Shown piece by piece: positions 738-64,000 of a stretch of 64,000 nt of DNA. Origin of the DNA: Armillaria gallica (taxonomy: Eukaryota > Basidiomycota > Agaricomycetes > Agaricales > Physalacriaceae); NCBI GenBank assembly GCA_037576215.1, contig JBANDB010000004.1:6014001-6078000 (forward strand). Direction: 5' to 3'. The number at the start of each line of letters is the position of its first letter. Positions within the stretch are counted from its first letter, which is position 1. The notes under the pieces are model-generated. The model saw only the letters and a list, made by a program, of their open reading frames with translations. It was not told the origin of the DNA and did not search any database. The translations under genes and the position numbers were made by a program.

Positions 738-3557
738 TCACACTTTACCAGCCCCCGTCAATTCCTTCCCAACGTTCCGATGCCGTTGTCGCAGTCGTCG
801 CCAAAGCGAGCTCACAGTCGACCGGGAATTGAGAGTCGGAGGCTCGCCTCCTTCAAAAAGCATCCTGAAGTCTGAAACAGTAGAGAGAATTTCCTCCCTT
901 CTCTGCGGCGACGCTTCAAGTTGAAAGTGCTCCGGAATAGTATCGAGCTTCTGTAAGCACTCGGTCCACACCGGATGATCTGGGCAACACTGTGCAAGGA
1001 GGCGAAGGCAGGGGATGTCCTCCCAAATGATAAACATTGCACAAACAGCAAAGATATTGTCGAGCTCAAAGAGGTACGCCACCGCGGCGTCCGACCTCCT
1101 GACCCCACTAACAAAACCCCTCAAGATCCCTTGCAGCCAGTGTCTCTGCAAAATCTCATTGTCCCCACGGAGCTCGACTACATCGTCAAGAAGACGTCCG
1201 GAAACAAAATGGGATAAATCTGATTTACAATGGGCTCGCCGAGCTGCAGGAAATCATACACAAATCGGAGTGTCATGTCGGAGGAGGAGAGTGTCCAGTC
1301 TTGGGATTCGAGGGCGATTTGGGTAAAATTGAAGGCCATGGTTGGGGTACACCAGTCAGAGGGGAGAAAGCGGGGGGGAGGGGTTGTAGAGTTGAGCACT
1401 TGGAGAAACAGCATCAGCATGATACGCTGATTATCCACCATCATGGTCATACGAAAGTCGTCTGAAGAAAGCAGCGTATACAGGAGCTTCAGCACTGCAT
1501 ATCGATTGCTGTCTAGTTTGGAAGGAGTCGCATAGCTCAGAAAACAGCGTGGGAGATCGATGTAAGTAACAATGTTTCTCAGCACCTGGGCAAAAAGCTT
1601 TTCCATAGATGGATTGATGGCCGTCTTTCGTATAGAGGGTGAGCCGGCTAGCGTCAGCAGCAAAAGTAGGCGTGGATCCTGAGGAGCGGGGAATTCATTG
1701 GCGGCGGGATCAGGATGGAAGATGCTATCCTTCACATGCGTGAAACCCTCAAAAAAGGCATCGGCAATGTCTGGATACAGATGATGGTAAACGGCTTCCT
1801 GAAGAGATACAGCACGATGGTCTTGACGAGAAATCAAACGAATCCTGGCATTTTTTGGGAAAAGGGGAAGTGGCTCGTAGACTGCACGCCAATAGTCCGA
1901 GGGAATCATCATGAATAAAGGAATCAGACCACTCTCTAGAGTGAAAGGTAGGAGCTTCTGGAGAAGATGGGCCCATACAATGGGCTGCAGGTAAAGCTGC
2001 GTATCTGGTGATTCCGCGAACTGAGCTTTGACTAAATTCGCAATCTCATTGATATGCGAAGAATTCAACTTGAAGTATTTGACACAAAGAATCTCCGCGT
2101 CGGTTTCTCTGGACGGTCGATCTATTCGCTTCAGCCAGATGGGCAAGACGTTGAAGCGGAGGCTCACGCGAATAAGGCGATCGATGATACTTTCCTGGTG
2201 AGTGATGGCCATGCGGTCAAAGTTGGTGTAATTGAACATTTCTGAAAACCTCTCCACGTATTGCTTTAGAGGCTCTACTGAACGTAACGGTAGGGCGCTG
2301 GTCGATTGGATGACGATGTTCTGTACACTAGGGTTGGAGGACATGTTCGACAACCAGCCCAAGGTGTACACATCGAGGTCATCGGCCCTGAGTTCAACAG
2401 CTGCACGCTCGATGCCTGGGAACTTGCGAGGAGGAGGCTTCGAGGGTGTTAAGGCCGATGAAACCAGAGTGATGAGGCGGATGATATAGGCGTAGGAAAG
2501 GAATATGTACTGCGACAGTGGTGTCTTGTACGGGCACGAAGGGTACCAAACCGGAAGGACATTGGTGATGAAATAGATGGCGAAGGTTACAAATGTGATA
2601 GTCCCGACAATGGATGCAATCACCGCTTGCAATGGGACCAGAAAAAGAACCAGACCGACTAGGAATATGCCAAGCGACACACTCAGGAGAACAGGTAACA
2701 ATCCGATGATGAAACCCACACCCCATTGCTCCAGCCCCATGTATCGAAACTGACGTACACGACATCTGTCGCGAGGGGTGCCTGATGGAACAGTGATGTA
2801 TTGGTGAATCCACTGTTTTGTCAGGACAGCAAACAGAGCAGTAGCGAGACTGAACGAAAGACTGGTGAACCACAATCCATTGATCAGTGAATCGGATATC
2901 GTGGGACGGAAGTCCGAGAACGGAGTGAGATCTGAGCGAGGAACATCATTGACGAGAGTACCGTTGGCCGCTGCACGCTGGACGTCGATGAGCTCGAACA
3001 GAAGTGTTGCCGTGACTTGACCGTAATCGACTTGGAGGCTCTGTGATGTTTGAACGACGAACGTAGTAACCACAGCAGAGAAAAGACCGGCCTATACAAA
3101 TATGATTAAAGGAACAATGACTGTTGAATAAAGCACTCACGAAAACGAGCAAGACATCTAGTCCGTCCCTCCATCCTTCCAATAGCTCAATGTCAAATGC
3201 ACCGCATTCTTCAAGGTATGTCCTCCATACCCTGACAAGTGGTCCCAGTTCCTCGTACCGCTTATCCTCCGGAAATCTCTGCTCATAGTCAAACGGATCG
3301 TTCCCTTGGATCGTAATGAGAAATGAGGCAAGTATGAACCATAAAACATCGTACCTCTAACTTGGGATGCGTTGCGGGATGCCAAAAATTTTGCGAGTGG
3401 ACTTTTGCTGGGAATGAGCTGTCCTCGCCGGCTGCTGAGCCCCAGGCTGGGAATCGCCTGCAGGATCATCAGATGCCCCTGTGTCGCCTTGAGTGTCATG
3501 GGGTAGTCTTTGGACGTTGTTGTCATCTTCGTCTGGTACGATATCGATGGAAGGCAT
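738..3557 (-). CDS. DUF6535 domain-containing multi-pass membrane protein
   Basis: This is a large DUF6535-type protein of the kind expanded in mushroom genomes; its function is unknown. The N-terminus is polar and acidic. It is followed by the family core: a motif DYEQRFPEDKRYEELGP, then DGLDVLLVFAGLFSAV (first membrane segment), VVTTFVVQTSQSLQ, and three further hydrophobic segments around LWFTSLSFSLATALF, GFIIGLLPVLLSVSLGIFLV and VIASIVGTITFVTFAIYF. A long helical C-terminal half follows. Introns are proposed at 3092-3140 (GTGAGT...TATAG) and about 3305-3361. A GTTAGA donor at 3361 joins the acidic N-terminus starting at 3557 in frame; the alternative GTACGA donor at 3354 uses another frame. 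Near 1160-1225 the reading frame must change. Either an 83-nt intron (GTAAAT...TTTTGCAG) is removed, or a one-base frameshift interrupts the gene before the last ~135 codons. The family call is strong, but the exact ends and intactness are not settled. Confidence 0.82.
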
Positions 3558-3768
3558 GACTGTTGAGTGGTATGAGGAAAAGAGCTCGTTAGGTGCTGAG
3601 GCTGTATCGTTGTACCCGCAGTGCCTCCAGTCAGGCCATCATAACAGACTGCCGCGAGAACGCAGGTTCCCCCACCTGCTCCCTCAATGCCCCGCACCCA
3701 CCCTATACCACTACGAAATACCAGCTACGAGCCCATGTACGGCCGAAGGGACGACTACCGCGACCTAG

Positions 3769-4100
3769 ATGGATAAACTGAGCGAGGAGGAACGCGAGTT
3801 GGAGGAAATGGTATTGCGCACCATGGGCCAAGTTCAAGTTATCGCTCACTCGTTAAGATAATAACATCCGTATACGGGGGTTCAAGACTATCGTCGCGTG
3901 AAGACGCAACAGCAGAAGAAGCAAGAGGCGGATGAAGCCGCGCCGGAAGACGATGAAGGGATTTCTGCGATCTCTGGTGTGCTAGATTTGGATGCTAGTA
4001 TGGAGGGCCTGGATGAGAGCGAGGAGGAGGAGGATCTCGATATGGCAGATGTTTGGCTTGACGCCCTGTCAAACAAAGCAAGCTTCTTTCTCCCATTCGT
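3769..4100 (+). CDS. Uncharacterised acidic protein, partial model
   Basis: A short frame starting at 3769 (MDKLSEEERELEEMV) runs into stops near 3860. In the same frame it resumes with a Gln/Lys stretch (KTQQQKKQEADEAAPEDDEG) and a strongly acidic stretch ending in DMADVWLDALSNK. The composition is typical of a charged coding region and not of intergenic DNA, but no GT-AG pair joins the two parts in phase. I do not recognise the product. The stretch from 4100 to 4960 holds no convincing exon. Confidence 0.3.
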
Positions 4101-11832: not shown

Positions 11833-14485
11833 GTGACCTGCGGCACTAGCAGAACGGCTGCCTAAGAGAGTTATTGGGCGTCCTCGTCTGCCATGTACCT
11901 GACTCTCACTCTCCCCTCAGAATATAGTCCCGGCATGGCTAGCACGATGCTCTTATCAGCCAACCTATTCCGACCTATGTATCCTCCAAGGGCAATCGTC
12001 AACCGAATCGCCCTAAAGTTTGGGTCACCACAAAGCGCCTTGTCCATCCTTGTCCAAGCACTCTCATGGAACAGATTCTCCACGATTATGATAATCTGTT
12101 CGACCATCAAAGGATACGAGCCTTTCATCAGGCACGTCACAAGCCAATCCAATCCCCAAGCAGAGTAGATCCCGTTCGCCCGTGGCCGCAGGGTTATGAT
12201 GGGTACATGGGAGATATCCAGGATCTGTTTGTCAGACCATCTAGTTGACAGATCTTCCGATGTAACGCTGAGCTTCTACATTGAAAGATAGCATAGATCG
12301 CGAAATAGACTCACAGGAACAAGCAGGCGCGAGATGCACCTCCCGAAGCGAGTCTCGGCTCGCGTTAAGCAAACGCTGAATATCCGTGGCTTGTTCGAGG
12401 ACAAAGCTGAAGAAACGGAGCCCGCGCAGACTATGTAGGGCGAATGGTCCCAGGTATGGGTATCCGTGGAAAAATGCACAGACGCCGTCAGAGTTAATGG
12501 ATGTAACGGATAGGACTTCTATTGGTGGGCCCTTATCATTACAGGAAGATCCGAGAAGACGAGAGTCTGATCTTGTTGTGGTAGCAAAGGCGGTGATGAG
12601 AGATAGAGACTTAAGGAATGGCAGGGCCCCAATTAAACTTCGAAATGTTTCTGTCGAGGAGAATGTGATGTCTTGGATCGATAGCGATGTAAGGGTATTC
12701 GGAACCCATGAGAAAATTCTACTGAAAGACTCCAAGTCTCCGGGGACGACGCGCAACGACCCGATGAAATGGAGCGTATGAACCTGCGAAAGTCTCGGTA
12801 GACTGATGGTGGATTCGGGAAGGGTGACGTGGAGAGTTTTGACCAAGTCAGGGATCGAAGGTGATTTCGCGCATAGAAGGTTGAATTCCTCGAAATCACG
12901 CTTCTCGGTCAAGTGAATGGTCGGGAACAGATGGAACTGGGCTCGACAGCGGAATAAGCTCGAGACGGACAGGCAAGCAAGGAGGGCGAGGCGGTCTCCG
13001 ATCAGGTGGTCAATAATGGCATCGACGAGTTCTTGAGGAAAGTCGACCATGATGCACTGCATACTAGCTCAGTCATGTTCGGTATCAGACACAGATGGCA
13101 GCAGCGCACGGGAAAGTATATCAGTTTTCTTGAGTTGTGTGTCCGCTGGCTGGAATCCGAGTGTTCTAATCCCCAAGTCAAAGTGTCAAGACGATTGCCA
13201 GAAGAAGAGCAGCAGAACCTCTTACCATAAAGAAACGCTGTATTTCAGTTGCTCTTTCCAGGCCAAGAAGGCCGCGAATGAGTTACTGTCTTCAAGAAAT
13301 TTAAATCCGGCATGAACGCCGTAGGAGCAAGATAGGACGACGACTGACGAATGAGGAAGAGCACAGGCTCAGTCGAGGAAACCGCAAGGAAGGCTGAGAA
13401 GAGGTGATTCGTTGATGTTGGTGGTACGAAGTCTAACCGTGCAAGCACAAGGGCCGCGTTATATAGTAGCGACGATGTTCCGGGCCGAATCTGCCACTTG
13501 CGCTTCTTCGGCGGTCGAGTTCCGGCAGTGATGCTGAGATGATCAATTTGGGTCCTTGAGATCAATGATATATTTAGCACTAGTGACATCTACATCTTGC
13601 AAGAACTGTATTGTTCACCTGTGATGATCGACAATCTAAGGGAGCAGTAACTTACTAGACAACCGGTCTAAGAATCAAGAATCTATTGTGGGTCTTCTGA
13701 GTCCTACTTGTAACTCGCGTTGGTAGGGCTTCAAGGCAAGCTTTACACTCTAAGTGGATTAGGGCCAAGGAGCCAAGAGGAATAGTACTTATTGTGTAGT
13801 GCCACATATGCTATACTCGGCGAATTCGTGAGTTGGTGCCTGATGATGGAGATCTGTCTGACAAGCGAAATGGAGTGTATTCAAGCGTCCATTGACTTTG
13901 CGATACTAGGAATGGTGGAACGTTCCTCACTAAGGATAGATGGGTATCTGAAGCAGGACAGTGTCGTTAAACGGCGCGCTCATGCCGTGAACTATCTCGA
14001 TGAGAAGTTATTATCGAGATTCGAGAACCAAGTCTGAAGTCGAAAGGCCCGAGCCGAAATGAACAAGCGAGAAGAAGAATCACACTATGATAATCACGAA
14101 CCCTTTGCAATTGAATGGCGATCAAAATTGAAGCCGGGGGTCGTGAAAGATGGCCATTTGCTCGCAGCTCCACCTGTTACGGATGCTGACACGTTGACTG
14201 AAAGACAATGATATTGGTCGGCGAGTGTGAGGAGCCGATGGGAAAAGACCATCACGATGAAACCCAAAACCAGACGGCAATACTACGGAATGTTATGGCA
14301 AGCTGTATCGATGCGATGCGAGTACATTGAATTCTAGCTTAGAGGAGCTAATTTGAACCTGAACCTGGACGACGGAAGGGTTTTAGTTGCCAGCCGAACA
14401 CACCGTGACGCTCTTGTAGCTAAGCGAAGGGGCCGTTATCCAGAATCTTGTTTATCACAATGATGCAATACTCTTCAAGCGCTGT
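11833..14485. repeat. Inverted segmental duplication, copy 1
   Basis: This is one arm of a 2.6-kb inverted duplication whose partner is 31075-33640. It contains an F-box gene on the minus strand. The junction near 11833 is sharp: the match runs through the stop codon and about 40 bp beyond, then ends. The other end fades near 14485. The coding part is much better conserved than the flanks, where small indels are frequent. Confidence 0.8.
11871..13062 (-). CDS. F-box protein, copy 1 of an inverted pair
   Basis: The product is a short F-box protein, expected to be a substrate adaptor of an SCF ubiquitin ligase. The N-terminal F-box reads DFPQELVDAIIDHLIGDRLA, then LLACLSVSSLFRCRAQFHLF. Next comes a leucine-rich, solenoid-like region (VHTLHFIGSLRVV, LPFLKSLSLITA) with the FALHSLRGLRFF repeat typical of these Agaricomycete proteins. 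The exon 2 tail is WLVTCLMKGSYPLMVEQ to the TAA at 11871. A 55-nt intron at 12225-12279 (GTAGAA...AAACAG) joins the exons in phase 0. A GTGAGT upstream is a better-looking donor, but it does not keep the frame. The start at 13062 gives MQCIMVDF; the ATG at 13050 (MVDFPQ) is equally possible. A near-identical copy is at 32395-33589. Confidence 0.82.
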
Positions 14486-31074: not shown

Positions 31075-33640
31075 TGAAACAGCGCTTGAAGAGTGTTGTG
31101 TCATTGTTATAAACGAGATTCTGGATTACCTCCCCTTCGCTTAGGTACCTGAGCGTAAGTTCGACTGGCAGCTAAAACTTTTCCCAGGGTGCTTCTCTTT
31201 CCATCTTCCATGTTCAGATGTGAATTAGCTCCTCTAAGCTAGAGTTCAATGTATTCGCGACACCAAGCCCCGTGGTCCCAGTATTCCCATCCGATTTGAG
31301 GTTTCACCGTGACGGTCATTTCGCACCGGCTCCGTACACTCGCCGACTAATATCATTGTCTTTCAGTAGATGTGTCTGACATCCGTAACTGGTGGAGCTG
31401 CGATCAAACGGCCATCTTTCACAACCTCCGGCTTCATTTGTGATTGGCATTCGATTACAAAATTCATGATCACCATAGTGCGGTCCTTCTCCGAGCTTGT
31501 TCATTTTGGCTCAGGGCTTTAAGTTTCATGATGTTCAATTCCAGGTGAGTTTTTTGTTCTTGACTCGGAGGACTCTAAGCTCGTCGATTGAATATTCCAC
31601 GGCGCGGGATCGTTTAATGACACCGTCGTGGTGCAGATGCCCATCTTAGGCTCCTAGTAAGGACCATTCCACCATTCCTAGTATCCACAGAGTCAATAGA
31701 CGCTTGAATACACTCCATATCGCATGCCAGACAGATCATTATCCATTATCACGCACCAAAACAAATCCGACGAGTATACAATATGCGGCGCTACATAGTA
31801 AGTACGGTTCCTCTCGACTCCTTGTCCTTAATCTCCATCGGGTTCAAACCATGCCTTTGATCCCATCCAACACAATGGTGACTCGGAGAACCCGCATTCA
31901 ATTCTCGATTCTCAGGTCCCTTGAATTGCCGATGATTGATGATCACATTAGGACACCGATCTGCGAGTGGCAGATTCGGCCCGGAATATCGCCGCTACTA
32001 TTATATAACGCGGCCATTGCGCTTGCTTAGTTAGACTTTGTACCACAATCATCAACGATTCAGTCTTTCTTGCGGTTTCCTCGACTGAGCCTGTGCTCTT
32101 CCTCATTCGTCAGTCGTTGTCCTATCTTGCTCCTATGGCGTCCATGCTAGATTTAATTTTCTTGAAGGTATCAACTCATTCGCGGCCTTCCTTGGCCTGG
32201 AAAGAACGACTGATTAATATAGTGTTTCTCTATGGTAAGAGGATCTGCTTTTCTTTTTATAGTCCTCGTCTTGATACCCCGGCTTGGTTTAGAACACGCA
32301 TACCAACCAGCGGACACAAAATTCAAGAAAGCTGATACACTTTTCCCGTGCGCTGCTGCCATCTGTGTCTGATGCCGAACGTGACTGAGCTAGTATGCAG
32401 TGCATCATGGTCGACTTTCCTCAAGAACTCGTCGATGCCATTATTGACCACCTGATCGAAGACCGCCTGGCCCTCCTTGTTTGCTTGTCCGTCTCGAGCT
32501 TATTCCGCTGTCGAGCCCAATTTCACCTGTTTCCGACCATTCGCTTGACCGAGAAGCGTGATTTCGAGGAATTCAACCTTCTATGCACGAAATCACCTTC
32601 GATCCCTGACTTGGTCAAAACTCTCCACGTCACCCTTCCCGAATCCACCATCAGTCTACCGAGACTTTTGCAGGTTCATACGCTCCATTTCAACGGGTCG
32701 TTGCGTGTCGTTCCCGGAGACTTGGAGTCTTTCAGTACAATTTTTTCATGGGTTCCGAGTACCCTTACATCGCTATCGATCCAAGACATCACATTCTCCT
32801 CGACAGAAACATTTCGAAGTTTAATTGGGGCCCTGCCATTCCTTAAGTCTCTATCCCTCACCACCACATTTGTGACTAGAACAAGATCAGAGAATTCTCG
32901 TCTTCTCGGGTCTTCCTGTAATGATAAGGGCCCATCAATAGAAGCCCTATCCGTTACATCCATTAACTCTGACGGCGTCTGTGCATTTTTCCACGGATAC
33001 CCACACCTGGGACCATTCGCCCTACATAGTCTGCGCGAACTCCGCTTCTTCAGCTATGTCCTCGAACAAGCCTCGGATATTCAGCGATTGCTTAACGCGA
33101 GCCGGGACTCGCTTCGGGAGGTGCATCTCGCGCCTGCTTGTCCCTGTGAGTCTATTTCGCGATCTATGTTATCTCTCCACGTAGAAACTCAGCGTTACAT
33201 CGGAAGATCTGTCAACTAGATGGTCTGACAAACAGATCCTGGATGTCTCCCATGTACCCATCATAACCCTGCGGCCACGGGCGAACGGGATAAACTCTGC
33301 TTGGGGATTAGATTGGCTTGTGACATGCCTGATGAAAGGCTCGTATCCTTTGATGGTCGAACAGATTACCATAATCGTGGAGAATCTGTTCCATGAGAGT
33401 GCTTGGACAAGGATGGACAAGGCGCTTTGTGGTGACCCGAACTTTAGGGCGATTCGGTTGACGATTGCCCTTGGAGGATACATAGGTCGGGATAGGTTGG
33501 CTGATAGGAGTATCGTGTCAGCGATGCCGGGACTATATTCTGATGGGAGAGTGAGAGTCAAGTACGTGGCGGACGCTGACGTCCAATAACTCTCTTAGGC
33601 AGCCATTCTGCCCGGGCCAGTGCCGCAGGTCACCGTATTA
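31075..33640. repeat. Inverted segmental duplication, copy 2
   Basis: This is the partner of 11833-14485 in opposite orientation. Non-coding matches extend well beyond the F-box gene. Examples are the AACAGCGCTTGAAGAGT block at 31079 (reverse of 14467-14483), AATATCATTGTCTTTCAGT near 31350 (reverse of about 14200), and GACGCTTGAATACACTCCAT near 31700 (reverse of about 13890). Confidence 0.8.
32395..33589 (+). CDS. F-box protein, copy 2 of an inverted pair
   Basis: This is a close paralogue of the F-box gene at 11871-13062. By eye there are roughly 20 substitutions and one inserted codon (SEN versus SD) across the first ~260 residues. The F-box reads DFPQELVDAIIDHLIEDRLA; the leucine-rich part and the FALHSLRELRFFSYVLEQ block are kept. 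Exon 1 ends at 33180, the intron is 33181-33235 (GTAGAA...AAACAG, the same position as in copy 1), and exon 2 runs from ILDVSHVPIITL to TAA 33589. Both copies keep their frames, so both are probably functional adaptors or were until recently. Confidence 0.82.
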
Positions 33641-37377: not shown

Positions 37378-39420
37378 TATTTTGGTTTCTTGCCGTGCAC
37401 CCTAAACGACAAAGAGCGTCCGAGTCGACCTTTAATCGGATATTGCACCGCACGTGCGTAGCCTTTACTTGCATTGCGATTGAGACATTGAATTTCTTTC
37501 AGATTCAAAATTTGCCGATCGCATCTTCTGACTTGGGGGCTCGCTGTGCAGTACTTGACACCATCGAAGTCGGTGTCGCTCTCGCCGACCAATTATGCTG
37601 TCAACGTCCACAGTCCTCAGCGTTTGTAGGCAAAGGGGGGCTTCTTTCCGACTGTGTCTAGGCCATGCTCCAGTAAAATGACCGTTCTTTCGTTCTTACG
37701 GGGTGACGGACGGTTCCAGGCGGTAGAACTCTTTCCAGTACTCGACGGCGTGGTTCAGTCAAGCTGACGAGTATACAAAGACGACAGTGAATATAAATTC
37801 CATCCTTTGACGATTTGTCCGCAAGTAAGTGTGATTGTATCGATTTATACGACTGTGATTTATATCAGTATCTTCTGTAGGTAATTAAAAGTCAGCAGTA
37901 TCCAAGCTTCTGCAAGCTCAACGTCTTCGTGGAAGCCTATTGTCGTCACACATTGGACTGCGGGAAGCTGTTCTTTCCTGATCAAGTGGATCTTGATGCT
38001 GTGACGGGATCAGCACCTGGAGAGGCAAAGGCCGACACTGGACATCCTCGTTGCAAGTTATTACACGTTCTCACTGTTTTCCGACCCTACCCTCGTCCGA
38101 CTCTCGTCCTATTCTGCTACACCCGCCCTAGCTCCACATCGCTGCTCCCGTAATTACCGGCCATTTCTTTGAACGCTAACACCTGTCCACACGATGTTCC
38201 CATGGAACGCCAAAGCTTTTTAACCGGTGCGATGTAGATGTTCTTGCTACTCGTACCATCATCGAAATTCGAGCCTTGCGAATGTCTCGACGCGTTCTGC
38301 CCAATCCCATGGGGCGGCGAACCTAAAGAACCGATGGCACGGTGACTCTGAAATGAATGTTAGGAGGACCCTGTGTCTTCCGCACTTTGTCCATACCGCG
38401 CACGGCCTGGGGGTCTCCAATAATCGATTGCCGGCTGGCTGTACTCAAAACGGCGGGAAGCCCAGATCTAAAAAAAGAAAGTAGCATCGCTCCCGAGGGT
38501 GAGTTTTCGCTTCTTCGGTGGCATTGTCTAGACACTCAGAGCTCGCCTATACAGCTTTGTAAAACGCCACTGCCTTCAGCTGGATGAGACTCATCGATCC
38601 TACAAAAAATCATCAGTGATTGTTTCGAAATAGTGGATACCAACGTGTAATCGAGTCATACGGGAACGGACCGTTATCGATATGCTATTCATTGGTCTTT
38701 TGGTGCTGGTGGCATCGGGCTCGCTGGGCTCGAGCAGAATGGAATAATTTCGGTGGTTTCTACGTGTACGTGAACAGTGATTCGTTTCAAGAAAGAAGCT
38801 CCTGTAGGTGCTCAAATATCTCATTATCCACCATTCTCATTTATATCATTGCTAGGTGGTTTTTTTGCTCCAGAGGAGGGGACTATTCCTGCTCGAAGGT
38901 GGTGGACAATGCCATGATACTCCGCTTGAGCTGCCAACGGTACCAAGCACGGGCCCAGTTGTTCTCCAACCCGGTTGAATGCTTCATTCTCGACATCGTC
39001 GACCTCGAGACCTTGACTAACCCACTGGCCGGGAGTTTACTCGGGAGTACGACGGGAAGCCAGTCAGCGGGCACCCTGCATCTTTGGGAAATATCGATAA
39101 GCCCATGAGCACAGCCTCGGGGTTAGAACTGAGGGGAGACGCGTCAAGCTCCACGACGTAGGATCCTTCGTAGCTCCCGTGGCGGTTTAAGGCAAGTTTC
39201 CTGGATACTTCACCCTTTAGTACCCATTCTTAGCATACCTTGCCTCTAACAGATTCGACCTACGCTGATTCTTTGAATCGCTGTAGAACCCGTTTGGCAG
39301 CCAAGTTCGTATATTCGGCTTATCTGACAATCAGTACCTGACTGCGCCGGCCTTTATAGACCTCTGAGTCATGTCAGTGGCGCAACATATCCGAGGATAT
39401 GAGCGTTCTCATACTATTGC
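37378..39420. repeat. Segmental repeat block A, copy 1
   Basis: This matches 47758-49860 in the same orientation, and its right part (from about 38030) matches 62920-64000. Anchors include TTGAATTTCTTTCAGATTCA at 37489 and 47887, and GGTCTTTTGGTGCTGGTGGC at 38694 with the same text near 63611. A short frame ending ASGSLGSSRME is kept in copies 1 and 3, but no full gene is visible. The remnant of an old gene is possible. Confidence 0.75.
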
Positions 39421-47757: not shown

Positions 47758-49860
47758 ATATTTTAGTTTCCTGCAGTGCACACTAGACGACTAAGAGCGT
47801 CTGAGTCGAGCTTTTATCGAATAACCATTAGTATTGCTACTCCCCGCATGCGTATGTAGCCTTTACTTCCATTGTGATTGAGATATTGAATTTCTTTCAG
47901 ATTCAAAACTTGCGGGTCGCATCGTCTGACTTGAGGATACACCGCGCAGTACTCGACGCCAGCAAGATCGACGTCGCTCTCGATGGCCCTATATGCTGTC
48001 GACGTAGACAGTCCTCAGCGTCTGTACACAAAGGAGGGCGGCTTATTTTCGACTGTGTCTTTGCCATGCTCCAGTATAATGACCGTTCTTTCGTTCTCGC
48101 GGGGTGACGACGGTTTCGGGTGATAGAAATTCTTCCAGTGCTCGACAGTGTAGTTCAGTCAAGCCGGCGAGTATACAAAGACGACAATGAAGGTATACTC
48201 CATCCTTCGGTCATTTTTGCTGCAAGTCAGTATGATTCTCTCTATTTGAATCTATACAACAGTGATCTATATCAATAGCTTCTGTAGGGAAGACCTCATG
48301 AAAAGTAAGCAGTATCCAAGCTCCTGCAACGCATTGATGCCTTCGTTTTGTCATACATCGGACTTCCTATTCCGTTTCTGATCAAGTGGACCTTGACACT
48401 ATGACAGGATTAGCACCTTGATCAAAGCTAGGTTGCGAGCCCGGAGAGGCAAAGGCCGGTACTGAACACCCACAGTCATTACACGTTCCCGCTTTTTACG
48501 ACCCTACCCGCGTCCGACTTTCGCCCTATCCTGCTTCCCTTTACCCTAGCTCCACGATCACTACTTCGTAATCACCGGCCATTTATTTAAACGCCATCAC
48601 CCGCCCACACGCCGTTCCCATGCAATGTCAAAGTCTCATTACCGGTGCACTGTAGACTTTTATGCTACTCGTCCTACCATCGAAATGTAAGCTTTGTGAA
48701 TGTCTTGACATGTTCTGCCTAATCCCGTAGTGTAGCGAACCGAAATAATGATTCGGTTCATCTGCAACCGTCTCGATGGCACTCTGACTCCGAAATGAAT
48801 CCCTTATTATGGTAGGAGGAATCTACATGTTGCGCCCTTTGCCCATACTGCACACAGCCTGGGCATCTTGGGGAATGGTCTTCCATGGCCGACCATATGC
48901 AACGGATGCCAAGCTCTAAAAGAACCTACTACTAAGCATCGCCCTCGAGAGTAAGTTTTCGCTTCTTCTTCAGCGGTCTTGTCTAGACACTTAGGCTCGC
49001 CTATACAGCTTCATAAAATCTCACTGGATTCGGCTGGATGAGACTCATCCGTCCTACAAAATTTATCAATGATCGTTTTCGAAACAATAGACACGAGCAA
49101 GTAATCGAGTCATAAGGGAACGGACCGTCATCGATATGCTCGATATATCTTAGGGAATGATATGTCTTTCGGCCGAGTGCTAGTGGCGTCGGGCTTGCTG
49201 GGCTCGCGCGGAATGGAATAGAATTTGGGTCATTTTTACGTGGATATGACCAATGATTCGATTTCAAGAGATATATAAGCTGGAAGCACCAATATGTGCC
49301 CATATATCTCATTATCCGTTCCTCATGTGTATCATTGCTAGGTGCTCTTTTTGCTCGAGAGACATCTACGGAAGGGGTTGCTTCTGCCCCAAGGTGGTGG
49401 ACAATGTCATGATACTCTGCTCTAGCTGCGAGCGGTACCAACGAGGGGGCCTTTTGTCGCTCTACCCCGTCGAGTCCTCCATTACCGACATTGTCATCGT
49501 CGAGACCTTGAGGAACCCCATTGGTTGGGAGATTGCTCGGGAGTATGACGAGAAGCGAGTCGATACACACCTCGTATTTTTGGGAAATATCGATAAGGGC
49601 ACAGCCTCGGGGTTAGGGGAGATACACCAAGCTCCAGCTCCAAGACGCAAGATCCTTCGCCCTCGTGGCGGCTTAAGGCAAGTTTCCTGGATACCTCGCC
49701 CTCTACTTATTCTCACCATGCCCTACGTATGGCAGGTTCGACCTACACTGGCGTATATTCGCTTTATCTCATCCCATTAGTACCTGACTGCGCCGGCCTC
49801 TATAGACCTCTGAGTCATGTCGGTGGCGCAGCATGGTTCAAGCGTATGAGCGGTGCTTAT
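47758..49860. repeat. Segmental repeat block A, copy 2
   Basis: This is collinear with 37378-39420 and, in its right part, with 62920-64000. The match ends near 49860, after CCTCTGAGTCATGTCGGTGG at 49800 (39360 in copy 1). Frames are not kept between copies, so this is old non-coding or pseudogene DNA. Confidence 0.75.
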
Positions 49861-50944
49861 AACATTCCGCGAAGTTCTCCGTTATTCATTTCTATCGCCC
49901 CCACACTGCAACCCTTGGCCTCATTGCCTCTATCGATTATCTGCCTGAGCATTGCCTTCTTCATTTCAGCTATAACGTCGAGATTCTATTCGACATCTTC
50001 TTCTCTTTTCTCTTCCGTCATTCCACTTCACTTTTTGCCATAAAAGCCATTCCTACGCGGCCTGTAAAGATCCTGACTAGCCTCTTTCAGCCGTCTTTCC
50101 CTTCTCCCTATCCACGAAACCATACAGTCGTCGCGGTTAGTTCGCGTTCAACCACGACGAGCTTTTTGTGTGGGCTTGACTTTATGAGCGGGCCTACGAA
50201 TCGGTTATAGATTGACGGTTAGGTTTATGTTAAAATGCATTTCACAGTTTCCTGTCTTATCCTCACTCTTTGCTACTCCTTACCCTCCTTTTACTCTACC
50301 GTTACTAGTCATTTACAGAATATGTGCAGATCTTTCAGACCGGAATGTAAGCACATCACCGGTTAGGGAATCGCGCGAGGTGGTGACATAGAACGCGTTT
50401 TCTTGACGTCATTGAGGCATTTTCCCACGGCATATGCCGATAAGAATCGCGCCTCGCTCCTTACCGGCACGGGCCGGCCTGGACATGCGCGATACCAATT
50501 ATTCGTCCATTCAAGTTTTTCATCCCGCCTTCGGTACTATCTCCTCACTACTGCGGTTTTGATTTACCAACATCTTGGCTCTGCTCGCCCTGGCCCTTTC
50601 TTCTGGGATTTTCCAACGATGTTCTTCCAATGGCTCCAGGCACACATTTGCGAATCGCATTTCCCTTTCCAGTGGCTATGCTTGATAGAATGGTAACGGA
50701 CGTTCAGTACTGACGGTTAAAGTTGATGATTCTGATGCCGAAAACCGACCAGAAGGACTCCCTAGGAGTGTACGAGCGCCATTGCGCATAGTCAGCGCTT
50801 CGCTGGAAGGTGACCCACGTTCATGCAAGTTGAAAATAATTTGCCCACAACCGCTCTCTACAGTTGTTTTTTCTTTCATTTCCTTCCATGTCCTGAGAGT
50901 ATTCATACGATTTTGTCTGAATGCTGTATCCAGGTGGTAGACGT

Positions 50945-51080
50945 TGGGAGCGTAGGCACGGTCCGGTTCCTCCGCGATCACGTGTACCGTATCCGTAGTT
51001 TCCCGTTTGTTCGTAGCTACATCCGTGACTATCACCAGCATTCCTCCATTCTCTCTCGTGGACCTAGCGATACGGTTCCA
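50945..51080 (+). repeat. 5' LTR (136 bp)
   Basis: This is base-for-base identical to 52476-52611. It starts TGGGAGCGTAGG and ends CGATACGGTTCCA, and contains a CACGTG. Similarity between the copies stops exactly at both edges. Confidence 0.88.
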
Positions 51081-51082
51081 TA

Positions 51083-51098
51083 TGGTGATGAGAGTGTG
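51083..51098 (+). other. Putative primer-binding site
   Basis: TGGTGATGAGAGTGTG starts two bases after the 5' LTR. The leading TGG would pair with a tRNA 3' CCA. The implied tRNA end (CTCTCATCACCA) was not matched to a known fungal tRNA. Confidence 0.5.
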
Positions 51099-51196
51099 AT
51101 TCGACGACACTCTTTCGTCCTCAGCTTCTCTGGCCACCTCTCACTGTGCTCATTCTCATTTTGCTTTCTCTTCTCTACACTCTACACTCTATAGTC

Positions 51197-52396
51197 ATGG
51201 CCACTACTGCCGACGAAGCGACTCTATCTGCGGCTCTATTACCACCAGTGGACTCTACTACCACAAAGAAGAAGAAGAAGAAGTCCAAGAAGAAGTCTGT
51301 AGCTACGACGACGGCTACCGGCTCCGTTCCGCAGCAGCAGCTCGATGCGACAGGAAAAATTAGCTCTGATGCGGCGCCGACACCGCTTGTTACATTCTCG
51401 CAAGCTATGAAGGAGCTCAACGACGTGCAGGAGGCAGGAGAGGATTCAAAGGAGGCTTTGACGCGATTTTGGAGGCACGCATATCGGTTGGGCGAGGAGG
51501 ATGGCCGTTTCGAGGCGTCGAGGGAGATAGAGCAGACGGGGTATCAGCAAGGCCACGACGCTGCTATTGCGAAGCTTATAGCCGCAGGGCATCAGATGAA
51601 AGGGGAGTGTACAGCTGGGAGGCAAGCTCGAGTGGACACAGGGACTTTAGCCAGCATGCAGGACGACACAGAGGTGGCCGACGAAGCATTTCGACGGGGG
51701 AAGGAGGCCGGTCTTGATGAAGGGAAAAGGGCTGGATATTGCGATGGTTTAGATGAGGGAAGGCTTGAAGCAGAGAAAGGCGCGTTGGAGCTTTTCTTCG
51801 AGGGGTGTTCAGCAGGGAAGAAGGAAGGCATCGCGAAGGAAAAGGAAGTTTGGATCAGGCAGGGACACGCTGAACTGGGAGCCTGTCGAGCAGGTCGAGA
51901 GGATCTCATGGACGCTGCTATCATGGTCGGAACCTCCACGCGTAGCTTCACTGATACTGCAGTCGCTACGGACCCAGACGACAACTCAAGCTCGGAAAAT
52001 TCGTTATTCGCAAAGTCGGAGCCATTCAGCTGGGCAGACGATGCTTCAACCATCCCCATCCATTCTGTCGAACCTGTTATATCTTCGCCACCTCCACCAC
52101 GAGATATTTCGTGTCTCTCTTCAGGCGCTCAGAAACCATTTGCATCGCTACAGCACCGGTCCAAGCGTAATTTCATTCAGCAACGGCGTACTACAGTACA
52201 TCGTGGTCATCACCACTCCAGCGGCTATCTCACACCAGCACTGCAACACTTCGGTAGACGTTCACAACACCCACCTGTACCATCGTGCCGTGTCAGTACA
52301 TTTGCGGTGAAGACTCCTTTGTTGGACTGGAAAGCAGATCCCCGTTTGTTTCGCTTGCGGGATGCTTTGGAGGACCTAGGTTGGGTCAGGGCTTGA
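51197..52396 (+). CDS. Yae1-like GX3-repeat protein carried by the LTR element
   Basis: An intronless 399-codon gene fills the element interior. The N-terminus is Ala/Thr-rich with a lysine block at about residues 24-33 (KKKKKKSKKK), possibly a nuclear or RNA-binding signal. The centre, about residues 95-245, has many Gly spaced four apart in amphipathic helix (RLGEEDGRFEASREIEQTGY, RGKEAGLDEGKRAGYCDGLD, GCSAGKKEGIAKEKEV), the deca-GX3 pattern of Yae1/Lto1 N-termini. A Ser/Pro-rich linker follows, then a compact C-terminal block (LLDWKADPRLFRLRDALEDL). The ATG at 51197 has a good context (GTCATGG) after a pyrimidine tract; an upstream GTG in frame is ignored. It has no similarity that I can see to gag or integrase. 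It could be a captured host gene or the element's own gag substitute. Confidence 0.85.
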   Translation: MATTADEATLSAALLPPVDSTTTKKKKKKSKKKSVATTTATGSVPQQQLDATGKISSDAAPTPLVTFSQAMKELNDVQEAGEDSKEALTRFWRHAYRLGEEDGRFEASREIEQTGYQQGHDAAIAKLIAAGHQMKGECTAGRQARVDTGTLASMQDDTEVADEAFRRGKEAGLDEGKRAGYCDGLDEGRLEAEKGALELFFEGCSAGKKEGIAKEKEVWIRQGHAELGACRAGREDLMDAAIMVGTSTRSFTDTAVATDPDDNSSSENSLFAKSEPFSWADDASTIPIHSVEPVISSPPPPRDISCLSSGAQKPFASLQHRSKRNFIQQRRTTVHRGHHHSSGYLTPALQHFGRRSQHPPVPSCRVSTFAVKTPLLDWKADPRLFRLRDALEDLGWVRA

Positions 52397-52435
52397 TGAG
52401 GTGATGATGTTTTCTTTTGCATGGTGTAGGGCGAC

Positions 52436-52455
52436 GGCGATGCGGGGGCATCGCC
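52436..52455 (+). repeat. GC-rich hairpin before the polypurine tract
   Basis: GGCGATG (52436-52442) and CATCGCC (52449-52455) form a perfect 7-bp stem with a CGGGGG loop. It lies between the cargo stop codon and the PPT. A role in RNA end formation or packaging is possible but only inferred. Confidence 0.55.
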
Positions 52456-52462
52456 TGGTTGT

Positions 52463-52471
52463 AAAGGGGGG
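52463..52471 (+). other. Polypurine tract
   Basis: AAAGGGGGG followed by CACA and then the 3' LTR. Its position and composition are those of the plus-strand primer of LTR retroelements. Confidence 0.7.
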
Positions 52472-52475
52472 CACA

Positions 52476-52611
52476 TGGGAGCGTAGGCACGGTCCGGTTC
52501 CTCCGCGATCACGTGTACCGTATCCGTAGTTTCCCGTTTGTTCGTAGCTACATCCGTGACTATCACCAGCATTCCTCCATTCTCTCTCGTGGACCTAGCG
52601 ATACGGTTCCA
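52476..52611 (+). repeat. 3' LTR (136 bp)
   Basis: This is identical to the 5' LTR at 50945-51080 and is followed directly by ACGT, the target-duplication copy. Confidence 0.88.
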
Positions 52612-53387
52612 ACGTTTCCTCCGATGTGCTCTAGTATGTTTCAATATCGCTTTGGTATACCGTTGCTGATGTGCTTCAGATGTCAGTAGCCCACGTGCAT
52701 TTTGTATGTCTCGTTGCATATTTTTCGATCTTGCTATGGGGCGTCTAAATACATCACCAGTGCCTCATCGATATTTTGTGACAAGTTCTTGGCCATAACT
52801 GCTTCATTTGGCTTCAGCGCTTGTGTCCTGACACGATGATTTAAATGATCCTTTGGACAATCAATGTCTACTGCGCTACGTCTGCCCTGCTAACACTACT
52901 GTTGGCGGGTATCTTCATCTCCATTTGATAATCTCAGGGTCCACATTGTCATCATTCAAAATCGATAAGCACCGTACCAGCAACACAGTCTGATCCGATA
53001 TCAACACTGTATTCTCGAACATAAGTTCGGACAAGCTGACAAGCTCCCGCAGTTAAAGGCTGTCGACAGGACTGTATGTCACCTCGTTCACAGTCTCTCG
53101 GTCCTGCTCACGAAACGCTTCTAGTATCCTCTGAGGATCCAGCTGACATGTAACTGCCAAAACAAACGGGGCGTTATTGCCTCACTTCCCTATTCATTGT
53201 ATCTAGCCGCCGCGGTGCCCATCTGAACAGTGTATTATTTTAGGCTAGGCGTCACCTGAATAGGATAAGTCGTCACGTACCCATTCAATTCTTTTTGATG
53301 TGTTCGTTTCGGGTGTCTACCGTATAGCGGGTGTCTGCAACATGAGCGTCTACTCCGTTTTCTCCCCTCCTTCTCACAGACGACTGT

Positions 53388-62919: not shown

Positions 62920-64000
62920 TGCGAATTCGGAAAGGCAAAGGCCAACACTGGACATAATTGTTGCATATTATTACATTTTACGACCCTACCCGCGTCCGAC
63001 TCTCCCGTGTGTCCCGCTACCCCTTGTCCTAGCTCCACAGTCACTACTCCGTAACTACCGACCATTTCTTTAGACGTCAATACCCATCCAGACATTGTTC
63101 CCATGGAACGACATAGTCTCTACCGGTACCGGTGCAATGGAGATGTTCATGTCACTCGTCCCACCATCCAAATCCAGGCCTTGCGAATGTTTCGAAGGGT
63201 TTTGCCCAATTCCGTGGTGCCGCGAATTGAAGGAAAGATCCGGTTCTTCTGTAACCGTCTCGATGGCAAGATGATTCGGAACTGAATTCCTTATTGTGTC
63301 AGTAGGCGCCTGCGTCTTTGCGCCTTTTGCCGATACCGCACACAGCCTGCCTCGGATATCCTGGGGGTCTTCGACATCAGTTGCCGGCTGGCTGTACTCC
63401 ACAGCGGGATGCCAAGATCTAAAGAACCTAGCATCGCTCCGGAGCGTGAGTTTTCGCTTTCGGTGGCATTGTCTGGACACTCGGGACTCGCCTACACAGC
63501 TTTTGAGATGCATTGCCATTGCCTTCAGCTGGATGAGGCCATCGATCCAACAAAAAAATCATCAGTGATCGTTTCACGGGAACGGATTGTTATTGATATG
63601 CTAGCCATTGGTCTTTTGGTGCTGGTGGCGTCGGGCTCACTGGGCTCGAGCAGAATGGAATAGAAGGTCACTTTTACGCTCTTTTACGTGGATATGACCA
63701 ACGACTCGATTTCACGAGAGATAACAGAGTTAGAAGCACCAGTGTCGCTATCCGTCTGTTCTCAAGTGTGTTATTGCTAGGTGCTTCTTTTACTCGAGAG
63801 GCGTCTCCGGGAGGGTTTGTCCTGGCTGAAGGCGGCGGACGATGCCATGATACACTGCTCGAGCTGCCAGCGGTGCCAAGGACGGGGCCGCCGCTTGTTA
63901 CTCTCCATTACCGACACTGCCGTAGTCAGGGTCTTGAATAACCCCATTTGCTGGGAGTTTGTTTGGCATGACAAGAAGCCCGCACCCCGTATTTTTGGAA
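62920..64000. repeat. Segmental repeat block A, copy 3 (runs off the window)
   Basis: This matches 38030-39060 and 48440-49560. Anchors include GGAAAGGCAAAGGCC near 62929 and CGACCCTACCCGCGTCCGAC near 62980 (48500 in copy 2). The minus-strand start region at about 63960 and the ASGSLGSSRME frame end near 63661 are shared with copy 1. The window ends inside the block. Confidence 0.7.

Follow-up and report, generated by a model that had tools for sequence, protein, structure and literature searches.

How can a retroelement with no reverse transcriptase of its own multiply, and what purpose is served by the one gene that it carries? A locus of Armillaria gallica raises this question. The window analysed here is a stretch of 64,000 nucleotides, C4:6014001-6078000, in a genome of 86 Mb and 28 contigs, each designated below by the letter C and a number. 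An LTR retrotransposon with a total length of 1,667 bp occupies positions 50945-52611 of the window, and its parts, in window coordinates, are the following.

50941..50944, no strand: left 4-bp target-site duplication ACGT, abutting the outer end of the 5' LTR
50945..51080, + strand: 5' LTR of 136 bp, TGGGAG...GTTCCA, identical to the 3' LTR and found as solo LTRs elsewhere
51081..51196, + strand: leader of 116 nt, from the LTR to the ATG
51083..51104, + strand: primer-binding site (PBS) of 22 nt, starting with TGG, two bases after the LTR
51197..52396, + strand: single ORF of 399 codons and a stop, without intron, under purifying selection between copies
52463..52471, + strand: polypurine tract (PPT) AAAGGGGGG, followed by CACA and the 3' LTR
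52476..52611, + strand: 3' LTR of 136 bp, identical to the 5' LTR
52612..52615, no strand: right target-site duplication ACGT, abutting the outer end of the 3' LTR

All the structural marks that the initial annotation had read from the letters are confirmed: the identical 136-bp TG...CA repeats with ACGT on both sides, TGG two bases inside the left repeat, AAAGGGGGG four bases before the right one, and a single intronless gene of 399 codons filling the interior, at 51197-52396. The two LTRs agree at 136/136 positions, with TG..CA ends, and the interior of 1,395 bp is mostly filled by the ORF. Since there is only one long ORF, and no match to a reverse transcriptase or an integrase in the element, it is non-autonomous; carrying one gene of its own, it must therefore borrow its copying enzymes from other elements. 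The region 50900-52700 has no match to a tRNA-like or any other Rfam family (E up to 1).

The whole element, used as a query, yields 19 matches in the genome, four of which span the full 1,667 bp.

C4 (window): target duplication ACGT
C5:5606383-5608061: 97% identity, target duplication ATGA
C22:180451-182115: 93% identity, target duplication CTGG
C11:1058080-1059765: 84% identity, target duplication ACAT

Each of the four has a pair of LTRs of 136-138 bp with TG..CA ends, and the tract AAAGGGGGG is the same in all of them. The LTRs are identical within three of the four copies; those of the C22 copy differ by 8 substitutions, all transitions. This pol-less, protein-coding LTR lineage is real and, because its LTRs are identical, recently active.

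The LTR alone is found at 18 places in the genome: eight belong to the LTR pairs of the full copies, and ten are single. Two of these ten are partial matches, at C9:60810, which turned out to be a full sister LTR, and at C5:1985490, which was left out of the count of target sites because its LTR end is undefined. Both ends are defined at the 13 sites that remain, those of four full copies and nine single LTRs, and 10 of the 13 are flanked by an exact 4-bp target duplication (binomial P about 2e-22 if the sites are independent). A single inverted duplication on C16 accounts for two of the 13, which leaves an independent count of 9/12; at the C3 site, the LTR end was shifted by one base by hand before the duplication was scored. 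The exact duplication is absent at three single LTRs, on C19, C12 and C9. Since LTR pairs and polypurine tract recur in 4/4 full copies, and duplications flank 10/13 sites, the observation is not due to chance. The sister LTR (L018) has 56 candidate places, of which the best 40 were scored; LTRs of its type stand at both ends of a decayed copy on C13, and on the 5' side of the C20 and C10 copies.

One full copy provides a clean empty-site test. The C22 copy is nested in an old Ty3/gypsy-type element and interrupts its pol: the left flank encodes a reverse transcriptase (PF00078), and the right flank an RNase H (PF17917, PF17919) as well as, in a different frame, an integrase (PF00665). When the flanks are joined minus one CTGG, a continuous frame of 323 residues runs across the site.

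Three other loci show how these sequences were rearranged. At C16:137637 and 146257 (L009 1038-1175 and 9658-9795), one solo LTR recurs with its flanks after 8.5 kb, turned the other way: the LTR insertion was copied by an inverted duplication. On C13 (L010 1909-5936), an insert of about 4 kb lies within an old copy of the element; 20-bp units are repeated in tandem in it, at 3476-3839. The sister-LTR copies at C10:3277361 and C6:6056305 have equal scores; the first is 27 kb and the second 9 kb away from a contig end, which may reflect a subtelomeric duplication.

Which primer does the element use? From position 51083, 21 of 22 nucleotides can pair with the 3' end of a tRNA-Leu(AAG), its CCA included; this tRNA has an intron and a long variable arm. 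The next best match to this PBS in the 64-kb window is 16/22 on the + strand and 17/22 on the - strand. Rfam finds the tRNA on C18 (49.7 bits) and C3 (48.0 bits), and the AAG anticodon was read by hand from the loop. ARAGORN gave no tRNA in the three loci tried, and Rfam gave two of them but not the third. Genome-wide, the 18-mer CANNTGGTGATGAGAGTG of the PBS has five occurrences, one in each full copy and one in a decayed copy on C20, against 0 for its backward control. The sole mismatch to the tRNA is at nucleotide 15. Usually 18 nt are copied from the tRNA primer, and the mismatch falls within them; a tRNA gene with the letter that matches nucleotide 15 of the PBS was looked for and not found.

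A shorter word from the PBS, the 12-mer TGGTGATGAGAG, occurs at 39 places versus 9 for its backward control, and 6 of the 39 are elements of this lineage. Forty bases on each side were read by eye at 30 of the 39 places; the remaining nine consist of two among the six known elements, and seven outside this reading. Five places in C17:690620-808443 (L082-L086) share a common flank together with TGGTGATGAGAG, forming a repeated unit on C17 that does not resemble these elements over the 40 bases read on each side. At C2:721535 and 721611 (L050, about 1501 and 1577) lie tandem 3' parts of a tRNA-Leu, 76 bp apart, a locus where Rfam detects no complete tRNA.

The unit bounded by the LTRs moves, and it bears the hallmarks of retrotransposition: a PBS for tRNA-Leu(AAG), a PPT and a 4-bp duplication. 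The initial annotation had proposed a pol-less, protein-coding LTR element multiplied by retrotransposition, and the four copies with their different 4-bp duplications and the solo LTRs bear this out; copies, solo LTRs, nested insertion and a mosaic copy, to which we now turn, all fit such a history.

The ORF is open in three of the four full copies and broken in the C5 copy. Over 396-398 codons, the Nei-Gojobori estimate of dN/dS is 0.388 between C4 and C22 (bootstrap 0.24-0.63), 0.232 between C4 and C11, and 0.231 between C22 and C11. Values of 0.23-0.39 mean that purifying selection has acted on the gene between copies. Compared with C4, the C11 copy proves to be mosaic. In two tracts, 39/40 and 60/62 third positions are identical, versus 54/75 and 125/220 in the other two, a pattern that fits what is expected from template switching between co-packaged RNAs.

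Selection on the gene also bears on how the element should be classified. The interior of a TRIM is short and without a coding gene, and LARDs (large retrotransposon derivatives) are large and non-coding. Because the interior here is a constrained coding gene, the labels TRIM and LARD, both suggested at first for this element, are wrong. The known TRIMs Cassandra, Helenus and Ajax are likewise small and non-autonomous, with a PBS and a PPT (PMC10886601 and PMC6934838, in the parts available), whereas the window element holds a constrained gene of 399 codons. As a candidate, a Helenus-type TRIM was rejected, given that there is no tRNA-like Rfam match and that the duplications are of 4 bp versus 5 bp in the fungal Helenus elements described in the available part of the survey; a LARD was rejected on account of the 1,395-bp interior, which is mostly ORF. 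LARDs are listed in the Agaricomycete Laccaria bicolor as LTR-derived elements, apart from Copia and Gypsy, in PMC3411680.

Is the gene a host gene that was captured between two LTRs? The search of the genome with the protein gives 15 matches, and all but one fall within these elements or within decayed copies that retain LTR remnants. The exception, C5:3300091, is a fragment with five in-frame stops, and no LTR match was found around it in about 1.5 kb on each side. An intact copy free of LTRs is found neither among these 15 matches nor among the 12 obtained with a query from a second family of elements.

This second family was traced from a weak protein match on C1. One copy, C1a, at C1:4490229-4491897 on the - strand, has about the same length as the elements of the first family; another, at C1:6558236-6561570 on the + strand, carries an insert. 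Their LTRs, present at ten places in the genome, are about 145 bp long, the end CA being two bases past the 143-bp alignment (read by eye), and have no blastn similarity to those of the first family. C1a shares with the first family a 20-nt PBS and the junction between PPT and LTR, GGGGGCACA followed by TG; its flanks, read by eye, show no matching target duplication. The PBS of the other copy is changed at several bases. Three protein matches, P0012-P0014, are the relatives of the window protein in this family, 28-30% identical to it, with 29% over 385 columns and an E of 7e-27 for P0012. The proteins of both families share the patterns PF-WAD, PRD-S-L-SG--KPF-SLQ and W--DP-L--L--AL--LGW. With residues 95-355 of P0014 as a query and E up to 5, only P0012-P0014 were found, the query included.

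The LTRs of the second family are thus unrelated to those of the first, yet PBS, junction and approximate length agree, and the proteins are about 30% identical. The gene is therefore old and integral to the element, and did not board it recently as a passenger. Gene and element have long descended together, and diverged together into two families.

The protein itself has a lysine-rich N-terminus, a GX3-rich segment with six glycines four residues apart at 168-188, an acid-free stretch rich in His and Arg at residues 321-360, and the C-terminal motif DW-x-x-DPRLFRLRDALEDLGW; it ends with GWVRA, where tryptophan is the fourth residue from the end. Between residues 90 and 240 there are 9 glycines spaced by four, versus a mean of 2.7 in shuffled sequences (0/5,000 shuffles), and P0013, of the second family, has 8 versus 2.26 (p 0.0002). 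A protein search in which the best 7,993 candidates by shared words were scored gave at least 11 relatives. Eight of the 11 are hypothetical proteins of Armillaria (A. solidipes, borealis, fumosa, nabsnona, gallica and luteobubalina), which suggests that at least eight "hypothetical proteins" of this genus are retroelement genes. The gene model of one relative, P0003, is longer and continues through an LTR end and a PBS matching those of the window element.

No precomputed Pfam domain is present on any of the 14 protein matches, and a profile search of solved structures in the PDB (E up to 10) gave no match. The Yae1_N family (PF09811) matches 12 of the 14 members below threshold (Pfam, E up to 10): the best score is 19.5 bits and that of the window protein 11.0, for a curated cut-off of 27.5. 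Membership in Yae1 was thus rejected, and with it the Yae1-like label of the initial annotation; since the cut-off is unreached, the GX3 run is a resemblance only. The deca-GX3 proteins Yae1 and Lto1, as the available part of PMC4523923 describes them, likewise have a glycine at every fourth residue, here at 168-188, and a tryptophan near the C-terminus; the window protein differs by having six GX3 units and not ten, a tryptophan that is not terminal, and a retroelement as its carrier. Lto1 was also rejected, for lack of a terminal tryptophan after a deca-GX3.

A captured gene that keeps a host function, as an iron-sulphur adaptor of Yae1/Lto1 type or otherwise, and is mobilised between LTRs, would account for the GX3 run, the weak Yae1_N matches in 12/14 members, a conserved tryptophan near the C-terminus that recalls Lto1 (PMC4523923, in part), and the fragment C5:3300091, which has no LTR in the sequence examined but is broken. 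We consider this very improbable: the best Yae1_N score stays at 19.5 versus 27.5 bits, the tryptophan is the fourth residue from the end, no LTR-free intact copy appears in the two protein searches, and the gene diverged with its elements into two families. The suggestion of a captured host gene, made in the initial annotation, finds no support; with 14/15 protein matches in elements or decayed copies and the other a broken fragment, the gene is found where the elements are. Its companion suggestion, a gag-like protein, survives in part: as a possible function it is retained below, and as sequence homology it is lost, no gag family matching any of the 14 members (Pfam, E up to 10).

Where do the copying enzymes come from? 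The initial annotation had called for an autonomous partner with the same LTR ends and PBS, and none was found: searches of the genome gave no pol-bearing element with these LTRs, the sister LTR or this PBS. For RVT_1, the best 150 of 774 candidates were scored, and RVT_2 has 135 matches; among the places listed for the two, only C22:179937 and C16:402115 are less than 8 kb from an LTR place, as judged by eye. The former is the nested case, and the latter is 7.4 kb away from a solo LTR that has a duplication of its own. In the available part of the Kojima survey (PMC10886601), animal Helenus elements have 4-bp duplications and Gypsy-like PBSs for the 3' end of a tRNA, and are linked to Gypsy helpers, and fungal ones have 5-bp duplications and Copia-like PBSs, and are linked to Copia. 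By analogy, duplication length and priming would make a Gypsy helper likelier here, while the fungal cases of the survey would point to Copia by kingdom.

The explanation that we favour, and hold to be somewhat probable, is a non-autonomous LTR retrotransposon that depends on mobilisation in trans, probably by Ty3/gypsy, and whose single protein has a gag-like, RNA-handling role. Reverse transcriptase, RNase H and integrase would be supplied in trans, most likely by a Ty3/gypsy element, because of the 4-bp duplication, the priming by a tRNA 3' end and the many RVT_1 matches in the genome. As a gag-like factor, the protein would act chiefly on the RNA that encodes it, and indeed its being kept under selection suggests that it favours that RNA. 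The GX3 helix would drive its self-association, and the stretch rich in His and Arg would bind the RNA of the element, which could thus package its own transcript into particles where the borrowed pol works. Such packaging would account for the selection that maintains an open frame across the copies. Self-association is suggested by analogy, not homology, with the GX3 repeats by which Yae1 and Lto1 are bound to each other (Paul et al. 2015, PMC4523923, in part).

The closest known system is TR-GAG of plants, also a non-autonomous element with two LTRs and a single ORF, which transposes in Arabidopsis (PMC8704663, in the part available). Three differences stand out from that source: the ORF of TR-GAG is a recognisable GAG, and the window ORF has no gag homology among 14 members at E up to 10; the active TR-GAG has a similar, potentially autonomous relative, and none was found in this genome; and the window element belongs to a basidiomycete, with LTRs of 136 bp and a total of 1.67 kb. 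It would work like TR-GAG, yet its membership fails on gag homology as tested, the gag-like role being a putative one.

Two other readings concern the origin and the role of the protein. It is quite possible, if short of probable, that the element is a true TR-GAG, a deletion derivative that kept its own gag, diverged past recognition. This overlaps on function with the explanation that we favour and differs from it on origin. The layout is that of TR-GAG (PMC8704663, in part), and, according to the available text of PMC3248453, gag varies in fungi and is difficult to recognise with profiles; but no pol-bearing relative with these LTRs, this PBS or this protein was seen in the genome, and none of the 14 protein matches bears a precomputed Pfam domain. 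Less likely, in our estimate, and rather doubtful, is an accessory factor that is not gag, one that counters silencing, for instance, guides integration, or brings the RNA to the particle of another element, with all structural proteins supplied by the helper. TRIM-type elements are small and dependent on autonomous elements (PMC10886601 and PMC6934838, in part), so that an LTR element lacking pol can do without a gag of its own; no gag family matches the 14 members, and selection on the frame only tells of some function that helps the element. Against an accessory factor, a single ORF filling the interior is the layout of TR-GAG (PMC8704663, in part), and the lysine-rich N-terminus, the basic His-rich stretch and the GX3 segment better suit a gag-like job, if weakly.

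To return to the gag-like explanation, one version of it can be put forward tentatively: an old lineage would have invented or recruited its own structural protein, not a gag, which by a GX3 helix and RNA handling packages the RNA, with pol borrowed. It is likewise only tentatively that we suppose the lineage, so read, to be old enough for the likeness of the LTRs to be lost, and the gene, the PBS and the PPT junction to be kept.

Non-autonomous LTR elements are usually viewed as passive deletion products. Here, one genome harbours two families, long since separated, of an element that has a constrained gene and in which neither gag nor pol can be detected. It is a testable case of how a pol-less element keeps a protein under selection, and of whether a protein that is not gag does the work of gag. 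No description of this element appears among the titles and abstract starts listed by literature searches on the topic, which in two cases covered 20 of 91 and 20 of 149 papers.

The window contains other repeats. Segments 11842-13115 and 32342-33618 form an inverted repeat pair, with arms of 723 and 550 nt that are 94-95% complementary and about 20 kb apart. Three diverged copies of one unit lie at 37453-39101, 47851-49597 and 63049-63966, spaced by about 10.4 and 14.5 kb, and are 63-92% identical over short blocks.
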